NCBI GenBank assembly: GCA_021107335.1
Contig: JAIOSZ010000167.1
Coordinates: forward strand, 1-10,544
DNA length: 10,544 bases
Direction of reading: 5' to 3'
From: Desulfuromonadaceae bacterium
GTDB taxonomy: Bacteria > Desulfobacterota > Desulfuromonadia > Desulfuromonadales > Syntrophotaleaceae
The position numbers and the translations under genes are program-made. Below, one piece after another: positions 474-5,726 of the stretch. The number at the start of each line of letters is the position of its first letter. The first letter of the stretch is position 1. Under the pieces are notes generated by a model. The model was not told where the DNA came from, ran no database searches, and worked only from the letters and a program-made list of their open reading frames with translations.

Positions 474-549
<76 letters not shown>

Positions 550-592: not shown

Positions 593-721
593 GCAAAAAT
601 CAACAGCCTGTCTAAGTTGGGTCGGCCATCGCTTTTGTCTATTTGAAGCCATGTGTTATTCTTACAGGTATTGAAATCTACATTGGTTTTCCGGATGACT
701 CACCACATCAGGAGGATAACC

Positions 722-1408
722 ATGAGCGAAAGCACTGTCGATCCCGTTGAGGCTACCCCCTTTGCTGTGCGTGATTGCGCCCTGATCTCTCTGGCTACGG
801 GTCTCAAGGCACAGAATCTGCGAGAATTTAGCGATATCCTCCAACGTGTCCCGCTGGAGAGTATTGAGCATCATTTATGGGGGCGCCTGTTGCAACCCCG
901 CTTCGATGAGCCGGAATATAACAACGATTTTGCTTCCTGGGCCTACCACGGTTTGCACGATAAGACCTTGGCCGAACGGCTGAGTATGGTGGTTCCCACC
1001 GATTTTGCCGATCAGGAGGCCCTGCGCCAGGAGCTGGTCGAGGTTCTTGAGGAGCGCCTTGACCAGTGTGAAATGGTGCCCTGGGCGAAAAAGGATCAGC
1101 AGTTCCATTTCTTACGTTCGCAAATCGTTGTCTTTGACAGTGGTCTGCGTTTCTCCCGCCCTGTTGACCTGATCCCTTATCTGGCACACCTATCCACGGG
1201 TAGTGTCTATTACCATTTTATCGATGCTCGCAACCGCACGACCGATCGCTGCGACGATTTCAGTGCCTGGCTGGCCGGTTGTGGCCCTGCTTATCAGCCT
1301 CTGCGCGAGAGGCTGTGTGGTGTCGACCCCTATTTTTCCTCGCTGCAGAACCTTCGCCAGATTGTCTCCGCCCTTTTTCAAAGTTTTTTCGAGGAGGCGG
1401 CCCAATGA
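722..1408 (+). CDS. DUF5752 family protein of the trehalose operon
   Basis: The protein is 228 aa, starting at ATG 722 behind a strong AGGAGG (710-715). A longer in-frame ATG at 653 lacks such a site and is not preferred. It is soluble, with no signal peptide or membrane span. The sequence fits DUF5752, a family of unknown function that I recognise from Geobacter-type genomes beside glycosyltransferases and OtsA. Conserved-looking blocks are FAVRDCALISLATG (14-27), IEHHLWGRLLQPRF (48-61) with paired histidines, EYNNDFASWA (65-74) and SVYYHFIDARNRT (161-173). Its stop overlaps the next start (ATGA), so translation is probably coupled. A role in trehalose or glycan metabolism is inferred only from position; no catalytic motif of a known phosphatase or transferase is visible. 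Confidence 0.85.
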   Translation: MSESTVDPVEATPFAVRDCALISLATGLKAQNLREFSDILQRVPLESIEHHLWGRLLQPRFDEPEYNNDFASWAYHGLHDKTLAERLSMVVPTDFADQEALRQELVEVLEERLDQCEMVPWAKKDQQFHFLRSQIVVFDSGLRFSRPVDLIPYLAHLSTGSVYYHFIDARNRTTDRCDDFSAWLAGCGPAYQPLRERLCGVDPYFSSLQNLRQIVSALFQSFFEEAAQ

Positions 1409-2667
1409 GTTGTACTGAGACCAATGGTAGCCTGTTGCTCGATCGCTACGCCGAAGTGACCGGCCGAGAGGTTATTCATCACCTGCAGCAGTTGGCGGCG
1501 CCCCTTAAGGGGGCCAAGGTGGTACATGTCAACTCGACCCGCGAAGGGGGCGGGGTGGCGGAAATCCTGCAAAAGCTGATTCCTCTTAAAAGGGCTCTTG
1601 GTATCGATGCCAGCTGGGAGGTCATCCAGGGCAGCCCGACGTTTTATGAATGCACCAAGGGCTTTCATAACGGTCTGCAGGGCATGCGCAGTCCGATTCT
1701 GAAACAGTTGTTGGCCGAGTATGAAAAGGTCAACGCTGAAAACGCCGAGGAGTTACGCAGCACTCTGGAAGAGGCCGACTTCGTGGTGATTCATGACCCG
1801 CAGCCGGCGCCGTTGCTGAGTCACTGCCCCGAGCGCCGTGGGCGCTGGCTATGGCGTTGCCACATCGACGCCAGCCATCCCTATCGTCCCGTGTGGAAAT
1901 ATCTGAGGCAGTGGGTCATTCCCTACGATGCCAGCATTTTTTCCATTCCCCAGTTTGCACAGGCCCTGCCCCATCCTCAGTACATTGTTGCGCCAAGCAT
2001 CGATCCATTGAGCGAAAAGAACCGCGATTTGCCTTTAGAGGAGCTGCACACCGTCCGCGAGCGTTTCAAGCTCGACCCGGATCTGCCGATGATGTTGCAG
2101 GTCTCCCGTTACGATCGTTTCAAGGATCCACTGGGGGTGGTGCAGGCCTGTCAATTGGCGGGAAAGCTGACCCCTTTGCAGCTGGTGCTTGCCGGTGGCG
2201 GTGCCACTGATGACCCCGAAGGCGAGGCGGTGTTGGAGGAGGTACGTCAGGCCGCGGCGGGGGATTCGCGCATTCAGGTTCTGTTGTTGCCGGCAGATGC
2301 CCACCATACGATCAACGCCTTGCAGCGGACCGCCGATATTGTGCTGCAGAAGTCGATTCGCGAGGGCTTCGGTCTGACGGTGGCCGAAGCCATGTGGAAG
2401 GGAAAACCGGTGATCGGCGGTGACACCGGCGGCATTCGCCTGCAGGTCTTCGACCACTACACCGGTTTTCTGGTGCGGACCCCGGAGGGAGCGGCATTGC
2501 GTATCCGTTATCTGCTCCATCGCCGTGAACTGCTCAAGGAAATGGGGCGGCGAGCGCAGCGCTTCGTCGGCGAGAATTTTCTTATTACCCGCCATCTGCG
2601 GGAGTATTTGACCATGTTGCTGGGACTGCAAAGCGGAACCCAAGGCCGCATGGAACTCGGTCTGTAG
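1405..2667 (+). CDS. treT: TreT-like trehalose synthase (GT4 glycosyltransferase)
   Basis: The 420-aa protein starts at ATG 1405 with GAGGAGG at 1391-1397 and overlaps the DUF5752 stop by 4 bp. Its length and motifs match trehalose glycosyltransferring synthase, which joins an NDP-glucose to glucose to give trehalose directly. The N-terminal Rossmann half has VVHVNSTREGGGVAEIL (39-55) and VIHDPQPAPL (128-137), followed by WLWRCHIDASHP (148-159) and APSIDPLSEKN (196-206). The donor-binding half has QVSRYDRFKD (232-241) and SIREGFGLTVAEAMWKGKPV (317-336), containing the EX7E pair E320/E328 of retaining GT4 enzymes. SIDPLSEKN and the WLWRCHID block are characteristic of TreT rather than general GT4 members. 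Archaeal TreT works mainly reversibly on ADP- or UDP-glucose; donor choice and direction here are not readable. A related trehalose phosphorylase activity is the main alternative. Confidence 0.88.
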   Translation: MSCTETNGSLLLDRYAEVTGREVIHHLQQLAAPLKGAKVVHVNSTREGGGVAEILQKLIPLKRALGIDASWEVIQGSPTFYECTKGFHNGLQGMRSPILKQLLAEYEKVNAENAEELRSTLEEADFVVIHDPQPAPLLSHCPERRGRWLWRCHIDASHPYRPVWKYLRQWVIPYDASIFSIPQFAQALPHPQYIVAPSIDPLSEKNRDLPLEELHTVRERFKLDPDLPMMLQVSRYDRFKDPLGVVQACQLAGKLTPLQLVLAGGGATDDPEGEAVLEEVRQAAAGDSRIQVLLLPADAHHTINALQRTADIVLQKSIREGFGLTVAEAMWKGKPVIGGDTGGIRLQVFDHYTGFLVRTPEGAALRIRYLLHRRELLKEMGRRAQRFVGENFLITRHLREYLTMLLGLQSGTQGRMELGL

Positions 2668-2708
2668 TTCATGCCCATACAATTTTTGGCGAGACAGGAG
2701 ACAATAGT

Positions 2709-4136
2709 ATGTCCCAAGAGCAAAAAAGGCGTTTGCTGGTAGTGTCCAATCGTCTGCCGGCGGTTGTTGAGTCTCGGGGGGAAGAATGGCACATCACCCC
2801 CGGAAGCGGCGGCCTGGTGACGGCCCTGGCTCCGGTTATGCGGCAGCAGCAGGGGTTGTGGATCGGTTGGCCGGGTTGCGGCGATGAGGCTCCACTGGGC
2901 CAGCTGTTGACCGGTTTTGCCCAGGACCAAGGTTATTCTCTGGCGGCGGTGCCTCTTTCGGCCGAGGAGGTGGAAAAGTATTATCGAGGATTTTCCAACG
3001 AGGCCTTATGGCCGCTGTTTCACGATCTTCTCGGCTTCTGTCGTTTTTCTTACGACAATTGGCAGGTTTATCTCGATGTTAACCGCCGCTTCGCCCGGGT
3101 CGTGACCGAGCATGCCAAGGCTGATGATCTGATCTGGGTTCACGACTACCAGTTGATCGGAGTGGGAGATCAGTTGCGGGCTCTGCAGATGCCCCAACCT
3201 CTCGGCTATTTTCTACATATCCCCTTTCCGGCTCCGGACCTCTTTCGCCGCCTGCCGTGGAAGGACCAGTTAATCCGTTCGCTTCTGGCTTACGACCTGC
3301 TCGGTTTTCAGACCCTGCGGGATCGGCGTAATTTTGTTAATACCGCGATCTCCCTGCTCAGCGAGGTTGAAGTGGTCAGTCGCAAACGGCAGTACGATTT
3401 ATTACGCTTCGAAGGGCGTACGGTGCGAGTGGGGCATTTTCCGATCAGTATCGATTTTGACGAATTTGATAGCGGCGCCCGGTCCAAAGAGGTGGCGGAC
3501 GCTGCCTGGTATCTGCATGAGAACCTGCATGGCCGGCAACTGATGCTGGGGGTCGACCGGCTTGACTATACCAAGGGGATACCCGAGCGATTTTTGGCCT
3601 TTGAGCGGGCGCTCGAGAAATACCCCGAGCTTATTACCAAGATCAGCCTGATGCAATTGGTGGTGCCGAGCCGTACCCATGTGCCCGATTATCAGAATCT
3701 CAAAGAGACCCTCGATCAACTGGCCGGCCGCATCAATGCCCGTTTCGGTGAGTCGATGTGGAACCCCATTTATTATGTCTTTCGTAGCCTCGATCGCACC
3801 CAGCTGCTGGCTCGTTATCGGACTTCGGAGATTGCCCTCGTCACCCCACTGCGAGACGGCATGAATCTGGTGGCCAAAGAATATTGCGCCAGTTCGGTGG
3901 AGAACAACGGCGTGCTGATTCTCAGCGAGTTTGCCGGAGCGGCGGATCAGCTCGGCAAGGGGGCACTGCTGGTCAATCCTTATGATATCGAAAGTACCGC
4001 CGACGCTATTTATCAGGCCTATGTCATGGCTCCAGACGAACGCCGCAGACGGATGAAGCTGTTGCGTAACGAAATTCGGAGAAATGATGTGCATCGCTGG
4101 CTGGATAGCTTTACTCAAGCCCTATATTCCAGTTAG
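2709..4136 (+). CDS. otsA: OtsA, alpha,alpha-trehalose-6-phosphate synthase (GT20)
   Basis: The 475-aa protein transfers glucose from UDP- or GDP-glucose to glucose-6-phosphate, forming trehalose-6-phosphate in the cytosol. Start ATG 2709 has AGGAG at 2696-2700. All GT20 landmarks are present: SNRLP (13-17), the GSGGL donor loop (32-36), NEALWPLFH (97-105) with the substrate-contacting Trp, WVHDYQL (143-149), HIPFP (170-174), [11 protein letters not shown] (281-291) with the phosphate-binding Arg/Lys, and [12 protein letters not shown] (381-392). The length matches single-domain OtsA, and there is no fused phosphatase domain. It follows treT after 41 bp with no terminator, so it is probably the third gene of the same operon. 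An OtsB phosphatase is needed to reach trehalose by this route and is not in the window. Confidence 0.97.
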
Positions 4137-4180: not shown

Positions 4181-4198
4181 GCAGAGACCGTGCGGCCC

Positions 4199-4227
4199 TT
4201 GCTATTCGACAGTAATTCTGCTAGAAG
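4199..4227 (+). promoter_or_regulatory. candidate promoter of the aro leader
   Basis: TTGCTA (4199-4204) and TAGAAG (4222-4227) are 17 bp apart, each matching the sigma70 consensus at 4 of 6 positions. This would start the RNA near 4234, about 26 nt before the leader-peptide ATG. A TATATAAA stretch at 4235-4242 is an alternative -10 without a good -35. The assignment is weak. Confidence 0.35.
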
Positions 4228-4259
4228 AAAAGAGTATATAAATTCACGGAGTGTTGACG

Positions 4260-4352
4260 ATGCAGTTTTGTTACGAGTTTTTTAACGGTTTTTCCTTTTG
4301 GCGCGGCTTCTTTTTTAGGCCGTCTGCCCAGGGTGAAGGTCCGTTGACGTAA
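4260..4352 (+). CDS. Phe-rich attenuation leader peptide (PheL-like)
   Basis: ATG 4260 has GGAG at 4248-4251 (8 nt spacing) and is followed by 30 codons ending at TAA 4350-4352. Eight of the thirty residues are Phe (positions 3, 7, 8, 11, 13, 17, 18, 19), including a run of three at 4308-4316, plus Tyr5 and Trp14. Such a codon bias in a tiny ORF directly before a terminator and an aromatic-pathway gene is the signature of a transcription-attenuation leader: when Phe-tRNA is uncharged the ribosome should stall on these codons. E. coli pheL, before pheA, is the classical parallel. The peptide itself probably has no function. Confidence 0.88.
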   Translation: MQFCYEFFNGFSFWRGFFFRPSAQGEGPLT

Positions 4353-4396
4353 CTGACAGTCGTCAATCAACCGATTAACACAAACCACGGGCAGAC
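4322..4396 (+). promoter_or_regulatory. antiterminator hairpin of the Phe attenuator
   Basis: GTCTGCCC (4322-4329, inside the leader ORF) is the exact complement of GGGCAGAC (4389-4396). The second arm takes GGG 4389-4391 out of the terminator stem and sequence from its loop, so the two structures exclude each other. A ribosome stalled upstream at Phe codons leaves 4322-4329 free to pair; one that reaches the TAA at 4350 covers or displaces it. A weaker upstream pairing (4303-4307 with 4319-4323, one G-U) could act as the 1:2 protector, and TTGACG/CGTCAA (4344-4349 with 4361-4366) adds a small hairpin between the arms. Confidence 0.78.
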
Positions 4397-4431
4397 CAAA
4401 CTTCGGCCCCGTGGTTTTCTTTTTGTTTTTT
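4382..4431 (+). terminator. Rho-independent attenuator terminator before the DAHP synthase gene
   Basis: AAACCACGGG (4382-4391) pairs perfectly with CCCGTGGTTT (4408-4417) around a 16-nt loop and is followed by a long T-rich tract up to 4431. It lies about 98 bp before the aroF start and 30 bp after the leader stop. It is not needed to end otsA, which lies 250 bp upstream, so its natural role is conditional termination of the aroF transcript. Confidence 0.92.
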
Positions 4432-4529
4432 ATCGGCGAAAAGGGTGCGGCTGGGGCGAATGGAAAGCCACAACTCGCGTCGCGAAGTCAGACCGCTTGG
4501 CTTGAAGGCGCCGTCAGAAGGGGACAAAG

Positions 4530-5549
4530 ATGATCATCGTCATGAAGCAGGGAGCCAGCCAGGAGCAGTTGCTGGAGATCAAACAGCGCATATGCGATCT
4601 TGGCTATAAACCCCACGTGATTCACGGAGCGACCCGCAATGTCATTGGTGCCATAGGGGATGAACGGGGCAAAGCGGTCCTGCAGTCTATCGAGTCGATG
4701 GATGGTGTCGAAAATGTGATGCCGATTCTGCAGCCCTACAAATTGGCCAGCCGCGAAGTCTGCCCTGAGCCGAGTATCATCGAGCTGGCGCCCGGTCTAA
4801 CCATCGGCGGCGAGCAGCTGATAGTGATGGCGGGTCCCTGTTCAGTGGAAGGGGAAGAGCAGCTGATCGAGACCGCCCGCGCAGTCAAGGCGGCCGGGGC
4901 TACGGTACTGCGGGGCGGCGCCTTCAAGCCCCGTACCAGCCCCTATGCTTTTCAGGGCCTAGAAGAAGAAGGGCTGCGACTGCTCGATCTGGCCCGACAG
5001 GAAACCGGCCTGCCCATTATTACCGAGGTGGTCAACCCACGGGATGTAGAACTGGTAGCCCGCTATGCCGATATTCTGCAGGTCGGGGCGCGCAACGTGC
5101 AGAATTTTCCGCTGCTCAAGCTGCTGGGGCAGCAAGACAAACCGGTGCTTCTCAAGCGCGGTATGGCGACCACCATCAAGGAATTTCTGATGAGCGCTGA
5201 GTATATCCTGTCCGAAGGCAATCGGCGGGTCATTCTCTGCGAACGAGGTATCCGTACCTTCGAGACGGCTACCCGCAACACCCTCGACATCTCCGCCGTG
5301 CCGGTACTTAAAGAGCAGACCCATCTGCCGGTGGTGATCGATCCATCCCATTCTACCGGCCACGCCAGCTTGGTGCCTTCCATGTGTTATGCCGCGGTGG
5401 CGGCCGGTTGTGATGGGTTGCTGGTCGAAGTCCACAACAGCCCCGAAACCGCCTCCTGCGATGGACCCCAGTCTCTGCGTCCGTCGGAATTTGACGCCAC
5501 CATGGACAAACTGCGCAAATTCGCCGCGGCCGCCGATCGAAAGATTTAG
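4530..5549 (+). CDS. aroF: DAHP synthase, type I-beta (3-deoxy-7-phosphoheptulonate synthase)
   Basis: The 339-aa enzyme condenses phosphoenolpyruvate and erythrose-4-phosphate, the first step of the shikimate pathway. ATG 4530 has AAGGGGA at 4518-4524. Residues 1-70 form the ferredoxin-like/ACT-like domain seen in the Thermotoga-type enzyme, where it mediates Phe/Tyr feedback inhibition; residues about 85-335 are the TIM-barrel. Catalytic motifs: AGPCSVE (101-107), KPRTSPY (133-139), LLKRG (207-211), ERGIRTFE (238-245), DPSHSTG (271-277) and [18 protein letters not shown] (299-316). The expected metal ligands are C104, H274, E300 and D311, a constant two-residue offset from my recollection of the Thermotoga numbering. 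The gene stands alone behind the Phe attenuator, so both expression and activity may respond to aromatic amino acids. Confidence 0.97.
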
Positions 5550-5649: not shown

Positions 5650-5726
5650 TAGTTTTCATCCGGAAGCGACTCTTTTCCCATATGAAAACTGCACTGTGTC
5701 CATCCAAAGTTTCCGGATGGACACTA
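5650..5726 (-). mobile_element. 73-bp MITE, copy 2 (inverted relative to copy 1)
   Basis: The core runs 5652-5724, with TA on both sides (5650-5651 and 5725-5726). Its reverse complement is identical to copy 1 at 75 of 77 positions including the flanking TAs; both differences are transitions in the right-hand hairpin. Here the flanks are T-TA and TA-A, so only the TA is shared between insertion sites, as expected for TA-targeting elements. It lies between aroF and the small Cys-rich gene, where its 10-bp hairpin may affect read-through. Confidence 0.75.

Follow-up and report, generated by a model that had tools for sequence, protein, structure and literature searches.

The window, the 10,544-nucleotide stretch of DNA analysed here, comes from an assembly of 2.18 Mb that is 67% complete. 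It carries aroF, whose 339-aa product matches PF00793 with 273.4 bits and the ferredoxin-like domain PF18152 with 76.9 bits (cut-offs 25.5 and 27). As PF00793 with an N-terminal PF18152 is what we take to be a 'type I-beta' DAHP synthase, the gene is the one named in the preliminary description of this DNA. Upstream, positions 653–4136 hold a row of genes for a DUF5752 protein, a TreT-type trehalose synthase and a GT20 (trehalose-6-phosphate synthase-like) protein. The features around the leader of aroF, all on the forward strand, are as follows.

4248–4251, forward strand: Shine-Dalgarno-like GGAG of the leader ORF, read from the sequence; the ATG starts 8 nt further on.
4260–4352, forward strand: leader ORF, MQFCYEFFNGFSFWRGFFFRPSAQGEGPLT, 30 codons plus TAA, seen in the sequence, in ortholog leaders and as an in-frame aromatic excess.
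4290–4316, forward strand: codons 11–19, F-S-F-W-R-G-F-F-F, adjoining region 2 and presumed to be the effective control codons.
4300–4308, forward strand: region 1, 5′ arm of the predicted protector (1:2) hairpin, partner 4318–4329.
4322–4329, forward strand: region 2, GTCTGCCC, 5′ arm of the antiterminator, exact complement of 4389–4396, covarying, encoding part of P-S-A.
4382–4431, forward strand: intrinsic terminator, stem AAACCACGGG (4382–4391) with CCCGTGGTTT (4408–4417), U-tract 4418–4431.
4389–4396, forward strand: region 3, GGGCAGAC, covarying, its first three bases shared with the 5′ arm of the terminator.
4530–5549, forward strand: aroF, type I-beta DAHP synthase of 339 aa, PF18152 ferredoxin-like domain (residues 1–68) followed by PF00793.

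Two further elements lie around this block. A tRNA-Phe gene (anticodon GAA; 474–549, reverse strand) is found ∼3.7 kb upstream of the Phe-rich leader, probably by coincidence. Inverted 77-nt copies at 207–283 and 5650–5726, 97% complementary to each other, flank the block with aroF; they belong to a dispersed repeat that matches the genome at 57 places, in many cases only in part (positions 1–58 and 48–77 are matched separately).

When the sequence was re-read, the short ORF proved exact to the base as first described: 30 codons behind a Shine-Dalgarno site, running from the ATG at 4260 to the TAA at 4350–4352, with eight Phe, one Tyr and one Trp codon and three consecutive Phe codons (TTC-TTT-TTT) at 4308–4316. 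An equally aromatic ORF arose in 1 of 1,000 dinucleotide shuffles of the 600 nt upstream of aroF in this window, and in 22 of 3,360 shuffles summed over 56 genomes. Taken individually, 55 of these 56 genomes passed the chance test at ≤3 of 60 shuffles.

We followed the leader through 58 genomes of the order, the window's own included. A DAHP synthase match was obtained in all 58 and a usable ortholog upstream region in 56; the two exceptions, G004 and G057, were both later matched by a covariance model. Conserved Phe-rich ORFs had been predicted for these regions, and an aromatic-rich leader ORF was indeed present in 56/56 readable ones, its core across the order usually being F-x-F-W-x-G-F-[FY]-F-[RG]-P-S-A. 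The weakest ortholog leader, that of G047, has six aromatic residues and an aromatic-pair score of 2. Translation of the leader was inferred from conservation of its frame: over a 69-nt stretch in 55 genomes, aromatic residues numbered 543 in frame versus 207 and 226 in the other two frames, stops numbered 1 versus 31 and 61, and the aromatic count was strictly highest in the leader frame in 55/55 genomes. The shuffles and the frame conservation together rule out a chance ORF. As a control we used a DAHP synthase paralogue (∼50% identical), for which none of 20 upstream regions carried a comparable leader; aromatic-pair scores were ≤2 in these regions versus ≥3 in 55 of 56 orthologs. Two of the 20, from G014 (9 aromatic residues in 57) and G006, hold Phe-rich ORFs that lack the core.

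A T-tailed hairpin was detected automatically in 54 of the 56 ortholog upstream regions, the best-scoring one in 7 of those 54 being a second hairpin closer to the gene. Such second hairpins, often of a GGCCGCC type, lie ∼40–80 nt before aroF and downstream of the attenuator terminator in G014, G017, G022, G025, G027, G029, G040 and G053; tandem hairpins also occur at the Rokubacteria loci L090, L099 and L110. In the window, the T-tailed terminator at 4382–4431 and the perfect 8-bp alternative pairing of 4322–4329 with 4389–4396, which uses part of the terminator stem, both agreed to the base with what had been described. The terminator sits between the leader ORF and aroF, as a classical attenuator requires. 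A simple scan of the forward strand for terminators did not list it (the scan allows loops of up to 8 nt; the loop here has 16). RNA folding, proposed earlier as a check, gave an unusually stable structure for 4240–4432 (z = −4.45; 0 of 200 shuffles as good) and for 4318–4400 (z = −3.18; 0 of 200), with the terminator-only stretch folding less extremely (z = −1.89; 8 of 200).

Covariation was examined in an alignment of leaders from 55 of the 56 genomes (G027, in which the automatic search found no CCAYGG-type stem, was left out). The 8-bp antiterminator core was paired in 93.3% of cells versus 27.5–50.5% when slid, a control that retains relatedness but favours a structure derived from the same sequences. 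It showed 28 double-change cells versus 5.9 ± 2.1 in shuffles, a test that relatedness inflates, and its covariation score of 0.312 was reached by 0 of 500 shuffles; the alternative stem is thus borne out in the orthologs. With outer pairs added, the antiterminator was paired in 85.5% of cells, and six genomes of one genus (G006, G008, G010–G013) have a different core, AUCGACCC pairing GGGUUGAU. In the terminator stem, 97.0% of cells were paired and 28 carried double changes, versus 6.5 ± 4.0 in shuffles (0 of 500 shuffles). For the protector 1:2 hairpin, 84.8% of cells were paired and 4 showed double changes versus 3.2 in shuffles, that is, no covariation. Conserved by sequence comparison are therefore an aromatic-rich leader, a terminator and an antiterminator using part of the terminator 5′ arm, and two of the helices covary. 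The evidence of conservation speaks strongly for ribosome-mediated attenuation, and the element is very probably a ribosome-mediated transcription attenuator of aroF.

In such an attenuator, scarcity of aminoacyl-tRNA for Phe (or Trp; Tyr in relatives) would stall the ribosome at ∼4296–4313, where it would cover region 1. Region 2 (4322–4329) would then be free to pair with region 3 (4389–4396) once this is transcribed, and the 2:3 pairing would block the terminator and let RNA polymerase continue into aroF. With plentiful charged tRNA, the ribosome would pass over region 2 and finish at 4350–4352; either the ribosome or the 1:2 hairpin would withhold region 2 from region 3, so that the terminator would form and transcription would end at ∼4431. 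The amount of enzyme would thereby come under charging control, besides the allosteric regulation that the N-terminal domain of the aroF product presumably exerts.

We modelled this switch with a truncated transcript, cut before the 3′ arm of the terminator, and a ribosome stalled beside region 2, given that a ribosome covers about 15 nt each way of its P site. Predicted 2:3 pairing was ≥0.5 in 46 of 55 genomes with the stalled ribosome versus 24 of 55 as free RNA, which leaves it <0.5 in 9 genomes in the stall model. The modelled stall changed the pairing by ≥0.3 upwards in 27 of the 55 genomes and downwards in none, and in the window it raised it from 0.25 to 1.0. With a ribosome at the stop codon, pairing was ≥0.5 in 24 of 55 genomes (0.18 in the window), and the modelled off state is not clean. 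In 17 of the 55 free RNAs, the predicted pairing of the 1:2 hairpin was 0. For full-length RNA at equilibrium, the terminator prevails even in the stall state in 49 of 55 genomes; the window is among the six exceptions (0.54 versus 0.42). Because the terminator wins at full-length equilibrium, the predicted switch must be kinetic, by order of synthesis, which is how attenuators usually work.

To follow the element beyond the order, we built a covariance model from the order leaders. It matched 256 of 277 class genomes at E ≤ 0.1, a total in which the 55 training genomes are counted, and 181 of 187 good class assemblies; five of the class matches are weaker than E = 0.001 (E 0.003–0.09), and 21 of the 277 genomes had no match at E ≤ 0.1. 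All 20 class loci read outside the order sit 62–88 nt before an aroF ortholog (68–73% identity), one example of a leader there being ..FYFWCGFYFRPSA.. Where a class genome had a second model match (20 genomes), this was mostly weak or fell on the opposite strand of the hairpin already matched, and three weak ones that were read (L283–L285) had no comparable leader; within the class, the element therefore seems tied to aroF.

Across the phylum, an even draw of 394 genomes contained 95 that matched at E ≤ 0.001, 76 of them outside the class. We fetched 40 of the 89 out-of-class matches listed, mostly top-ranked ones or those from genomes with two matches, and 19 of these 40 loci precede a DAHP synthase gene (tblastn). 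Nine precede a PaaK-like (phenylacetate-CoA-ligase-like) gene, as judged by the start of the protein; two of these proteins were scanned and matched TIGR02155 best, at 643.6 and 639.8 bits, just below the cut-off of 646.3. At L279 and L280, genes for the substrate-binding, permease and ATPase components of an ABC transporter of the branched-chain type come after the PaaK-like gene. Eight loci precede a gene for a LivJ-like substrate-binding protein (six scanned), and two precede an ADH synthase gene (TIGR01949, over cut-off), in one case followed by a 3-dehydroquinate synthase II gene. Of the last two, L235 has leuA downstream of a Leu-rich leader, LLTLLLGLALLRLLLKA, with a terminator, in the same phylum, and L248 has another downstream gene and a leader that is not clearly aromatic. 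Tyr-rich leaders with a perfect core and a terminator lie before LivJ-like binding-protein genes at L211 (YYYYGYLRRSA), L238 and L240 (GYSYYGYLRRSA, YDYYGYGYLRRSA), and Tyr-specific attenuators of transporters are possible there. An automatic search for complementary stems gave p ≤ 0.05 in 33 of 40 phylum loci and in 15 of the 19 class loci with a terminator found (of 20), figures that are supportive only, as the search sometimes took the stem of a second hairpin and used mononucleotide shuffles.

Outside the phylum, the class with L090 (titled Rokuibacteriota) and L067 (titled Methylomirabilota) gave a DAHP synthase match in 79 of 80 genomes, and 14 of 30 Methylomirabilota/Rokubacteria loci read have the core, its partner and at least three aromatic codons. 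A few individual loci, titled Nitrospinota (L083) or Nitrospirae (L082, L085, L094), look similar by eye or give a model match; many other aroF loci of the same set carry no such leader. In the class of G652, tandem DAHP synthase matches lie 5–17 bases apart in G660, G664, G666, G677, G681, G685, G700 and G732; several share one joint open frame of 590–750 aa and are perhaps fused.

The antiterminator core, GUCUGCCC/GGGCAGAC, is also met outside the class, in many cases in a different reading frame. We sought it by a strict pattern and assigned it the frame richest in aromatic residues. Together with its partner and three or more aromatic codons, it was found at 34 of 56 order, 18 of 20 class and 28 of 40 phylum loci, besides the 14 of 30 Methylomirabilota/Rokubacteria loci given above; the remaining loci of these four sets have a diverged core, none or (two loci) fewer aromatic codons. 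Among the loci with the core, the P-S-A frame is used by all 18 of the class and by 33 of the 34 of the order, and the V-C-P frame by all 14 Methylomirabilota/Rokubacteria loci; the 28 loci of the phylum outside the class divide into 14 P-S-A, 12 V-C-P and 2 in the third frame. The V-C-P reading of the Methylomirabilota/Rokubacteria cores, as against P-S-A in the class, is expected if the RNA, not the peptide, is selected in the former. The core may be shared by descent, by transfer or through convergence on an effective switch.

Only the last codons before region 2 should count for stalling, we infer, because a ribosome held up at an earlier Phe codon would not cover region 1, which should favour termination. 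Among the 55 genomes, Phe is more frequent than any other residue at 10 of the 12 codons from −2 to −13 before region 2, and 8 of the 10 aromatic codons in the window are Phe. A strict phenylalanine attenuator, with Trp and Tyr codons incidental or kept for RNA pairing, would fit these counts, and the Trp codon of the window (UGG, 4299–4301) overlaps a GG paired in the 1:2 hairpin and may be kept for the RNA. However, Trp occupies codon −7 in 33 of the 55 genomes and Tyr occupies codon −3 in 22, and the leaders of L211, L238 and L240 outside the class are rich in Tyr, so that we regard strict Phe sensing as a tentative option, somewhat doubtful on balance. As the codons beside the switch are Phe and Trp in the window and Phe, Tyr and Trp in relatives, 'aromatic attenuator with Phe dominant' appears the safer name. 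The preliminary description of a Phe attenuator before a DAHP synthase gene holds for the attenuator, given the leader in 56/56 and the covarying stems, but probably not for Phe alone.

Explanations that dispense with a charging-dependent leader fare worse. A hairpin that is merely an intergenic terminator would be ordinary after the trehalose-type genes upstream, the terminator-only stretch folds at just the z of −1.89 given above, and the Phe-rich ORF would then be a T-rich accident; yet the leader frame is kept almost clear of stops, and the covariation of the antiterminator and the paralogue regions, 0/20 with a comparable leader, rule this reading out, leaving it a negligible probability. 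A ligand-binding riboswitch, a T-box or a protein-dependent antiterminator might be considered since four clostridial aroF loci do carry T-boxes. The sole Rfam match of the window at a gathering score is, however, one tRNA, and seven matches at E up to 10 in 4190–4545 all fall far under their gathering scores; the T-box model RF00230 had no match in the window in a search that works, as the T-boxes at the four clostridial loci show. On these scans of the window and of 4190–4545 we reject a riboswitch or T-box, and we give hardly any weight to this whole group of regulators, protein-dependent antiterminators included. None of the Rfam amino acid leader families had a covariance model match in the window either, and the element therefore counts as a separate family. 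The good conservation of the FxFWxGFxFRPSA core within the class could also point to an arrest peptide, in which the nascent peptide itself, on binding of an aromatic amino acid, stalls the ribosome independently of starvation. But the RPSA part is what encodes region 2, and loci of other groups carry other peptides over the same RNA core in another frame, which makes arrest by the peptide very unlikely.

Beyond the attenuator of aroF itself, a wider reading has in our view an even chance of being right: the window would hold a single representative of an ancient family of aromatic-amino-acid attenuators, in which the core, GUCUGCCC : GGGCAGAC, has been maintained at the RNA level in two or more phyla as the frame over it shifted (P-S-A, V-C-P, G-L-P). 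In Desulfobacterota outside the class, this family would govern a scattered regulon of DAHP synthases, ADH synthase with 3-dehydroquinate synthase II (an alternative entry), a PaaK-like gene together with an ABC transporter of the branched-chain type, and LivJ-like binding proteins that stand alone, some of the leaders being rich in Tyr.

The aroR-aroF attenuator of Corynebacterium glutamicum was reportedly described by Neshat et al. in 2014. As reviewed in PMC11802643, it is a precedent for Phe-leader attenuation of a DAHP synthase gene: as in the window, a leader peptide, there with Phe-Tyr-Phe, precedes the gene, and stalling under Phe limitation raises its transcription. PMC7356990 also treats this attenuator. 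Unlike the window, aroR-aroF belongs to another phylum, and the two are likened by description, not by sequence. Because this precedent exists, the claim of novelty must be narrower: attenuation before a DAHP synthase gene is not the first of its kind (PMC11802643). The uORFC-13-1 motif before aroF in Acholeplasma, proposed computationally with 24 unique examples, likewise combines a candidate uORF with Phe codon(s) and a terminator; unlike the window, it belongs to another lineage, and the likeness is again one of description, not sequence (PMC8632094).

Clostridial aroF loci with T-box leaders (L096, L102, L103, L109) represent another tRNA-sensing solution before the same gene. T-boxes bind tRNA directly; control of the gene is presumably by tRNA charging, as proposed for the window, but, unlike there, without translation of a leader. 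In E. coli, pheL-pheA and pheST have Phe codons in their leaders and are controlled by Phe-tRNA charging; unlike the window, they govern a terminal-branch gene or a synthetase and not the pathway entry. Both are named in PMC11802643.

A 2005 study of Actinobacteria cites surveys of proteobacterial attenuators from 2001 and 2004 (PMC1262725), in which some of these elements may already be mentioned. Among open-licence full texts, the papers listed on attenuation and leader peptides in Geobacter, deltaproteobacteria and Desulfovibrio, on DAHP synthase and on the subject more broadly gave no description of this element. From the comparisons made here, a large class-wide attenuator family, its unusual RNA core and its wider set of target genes appear to be new. 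Also new is that, outside the class, the same architecture lies before phenylacetate-CoA-ligase-like, ABC-transporter and ADH-synthase genes.

Together, these data suggest that, throughout the class Desulfuromonadia, entry into the aromatic pathway is as a rule controlled by tRNA charging, and they supply a regulatory family for annotation. If the wider family reading is true, the PaaK-like and transporter genes would serve the supply of aromatic amino acids, by uptake or by salvage from aryl acids, and not their breakdown, and the leader would show which of a cell's PaaK-like, ABC-transporter and DAHP synthase genes it uses for the supply of aromatic amino acids. It would also provide a case in which the core of an RNA switch is retained while the peptide frame above it changes.
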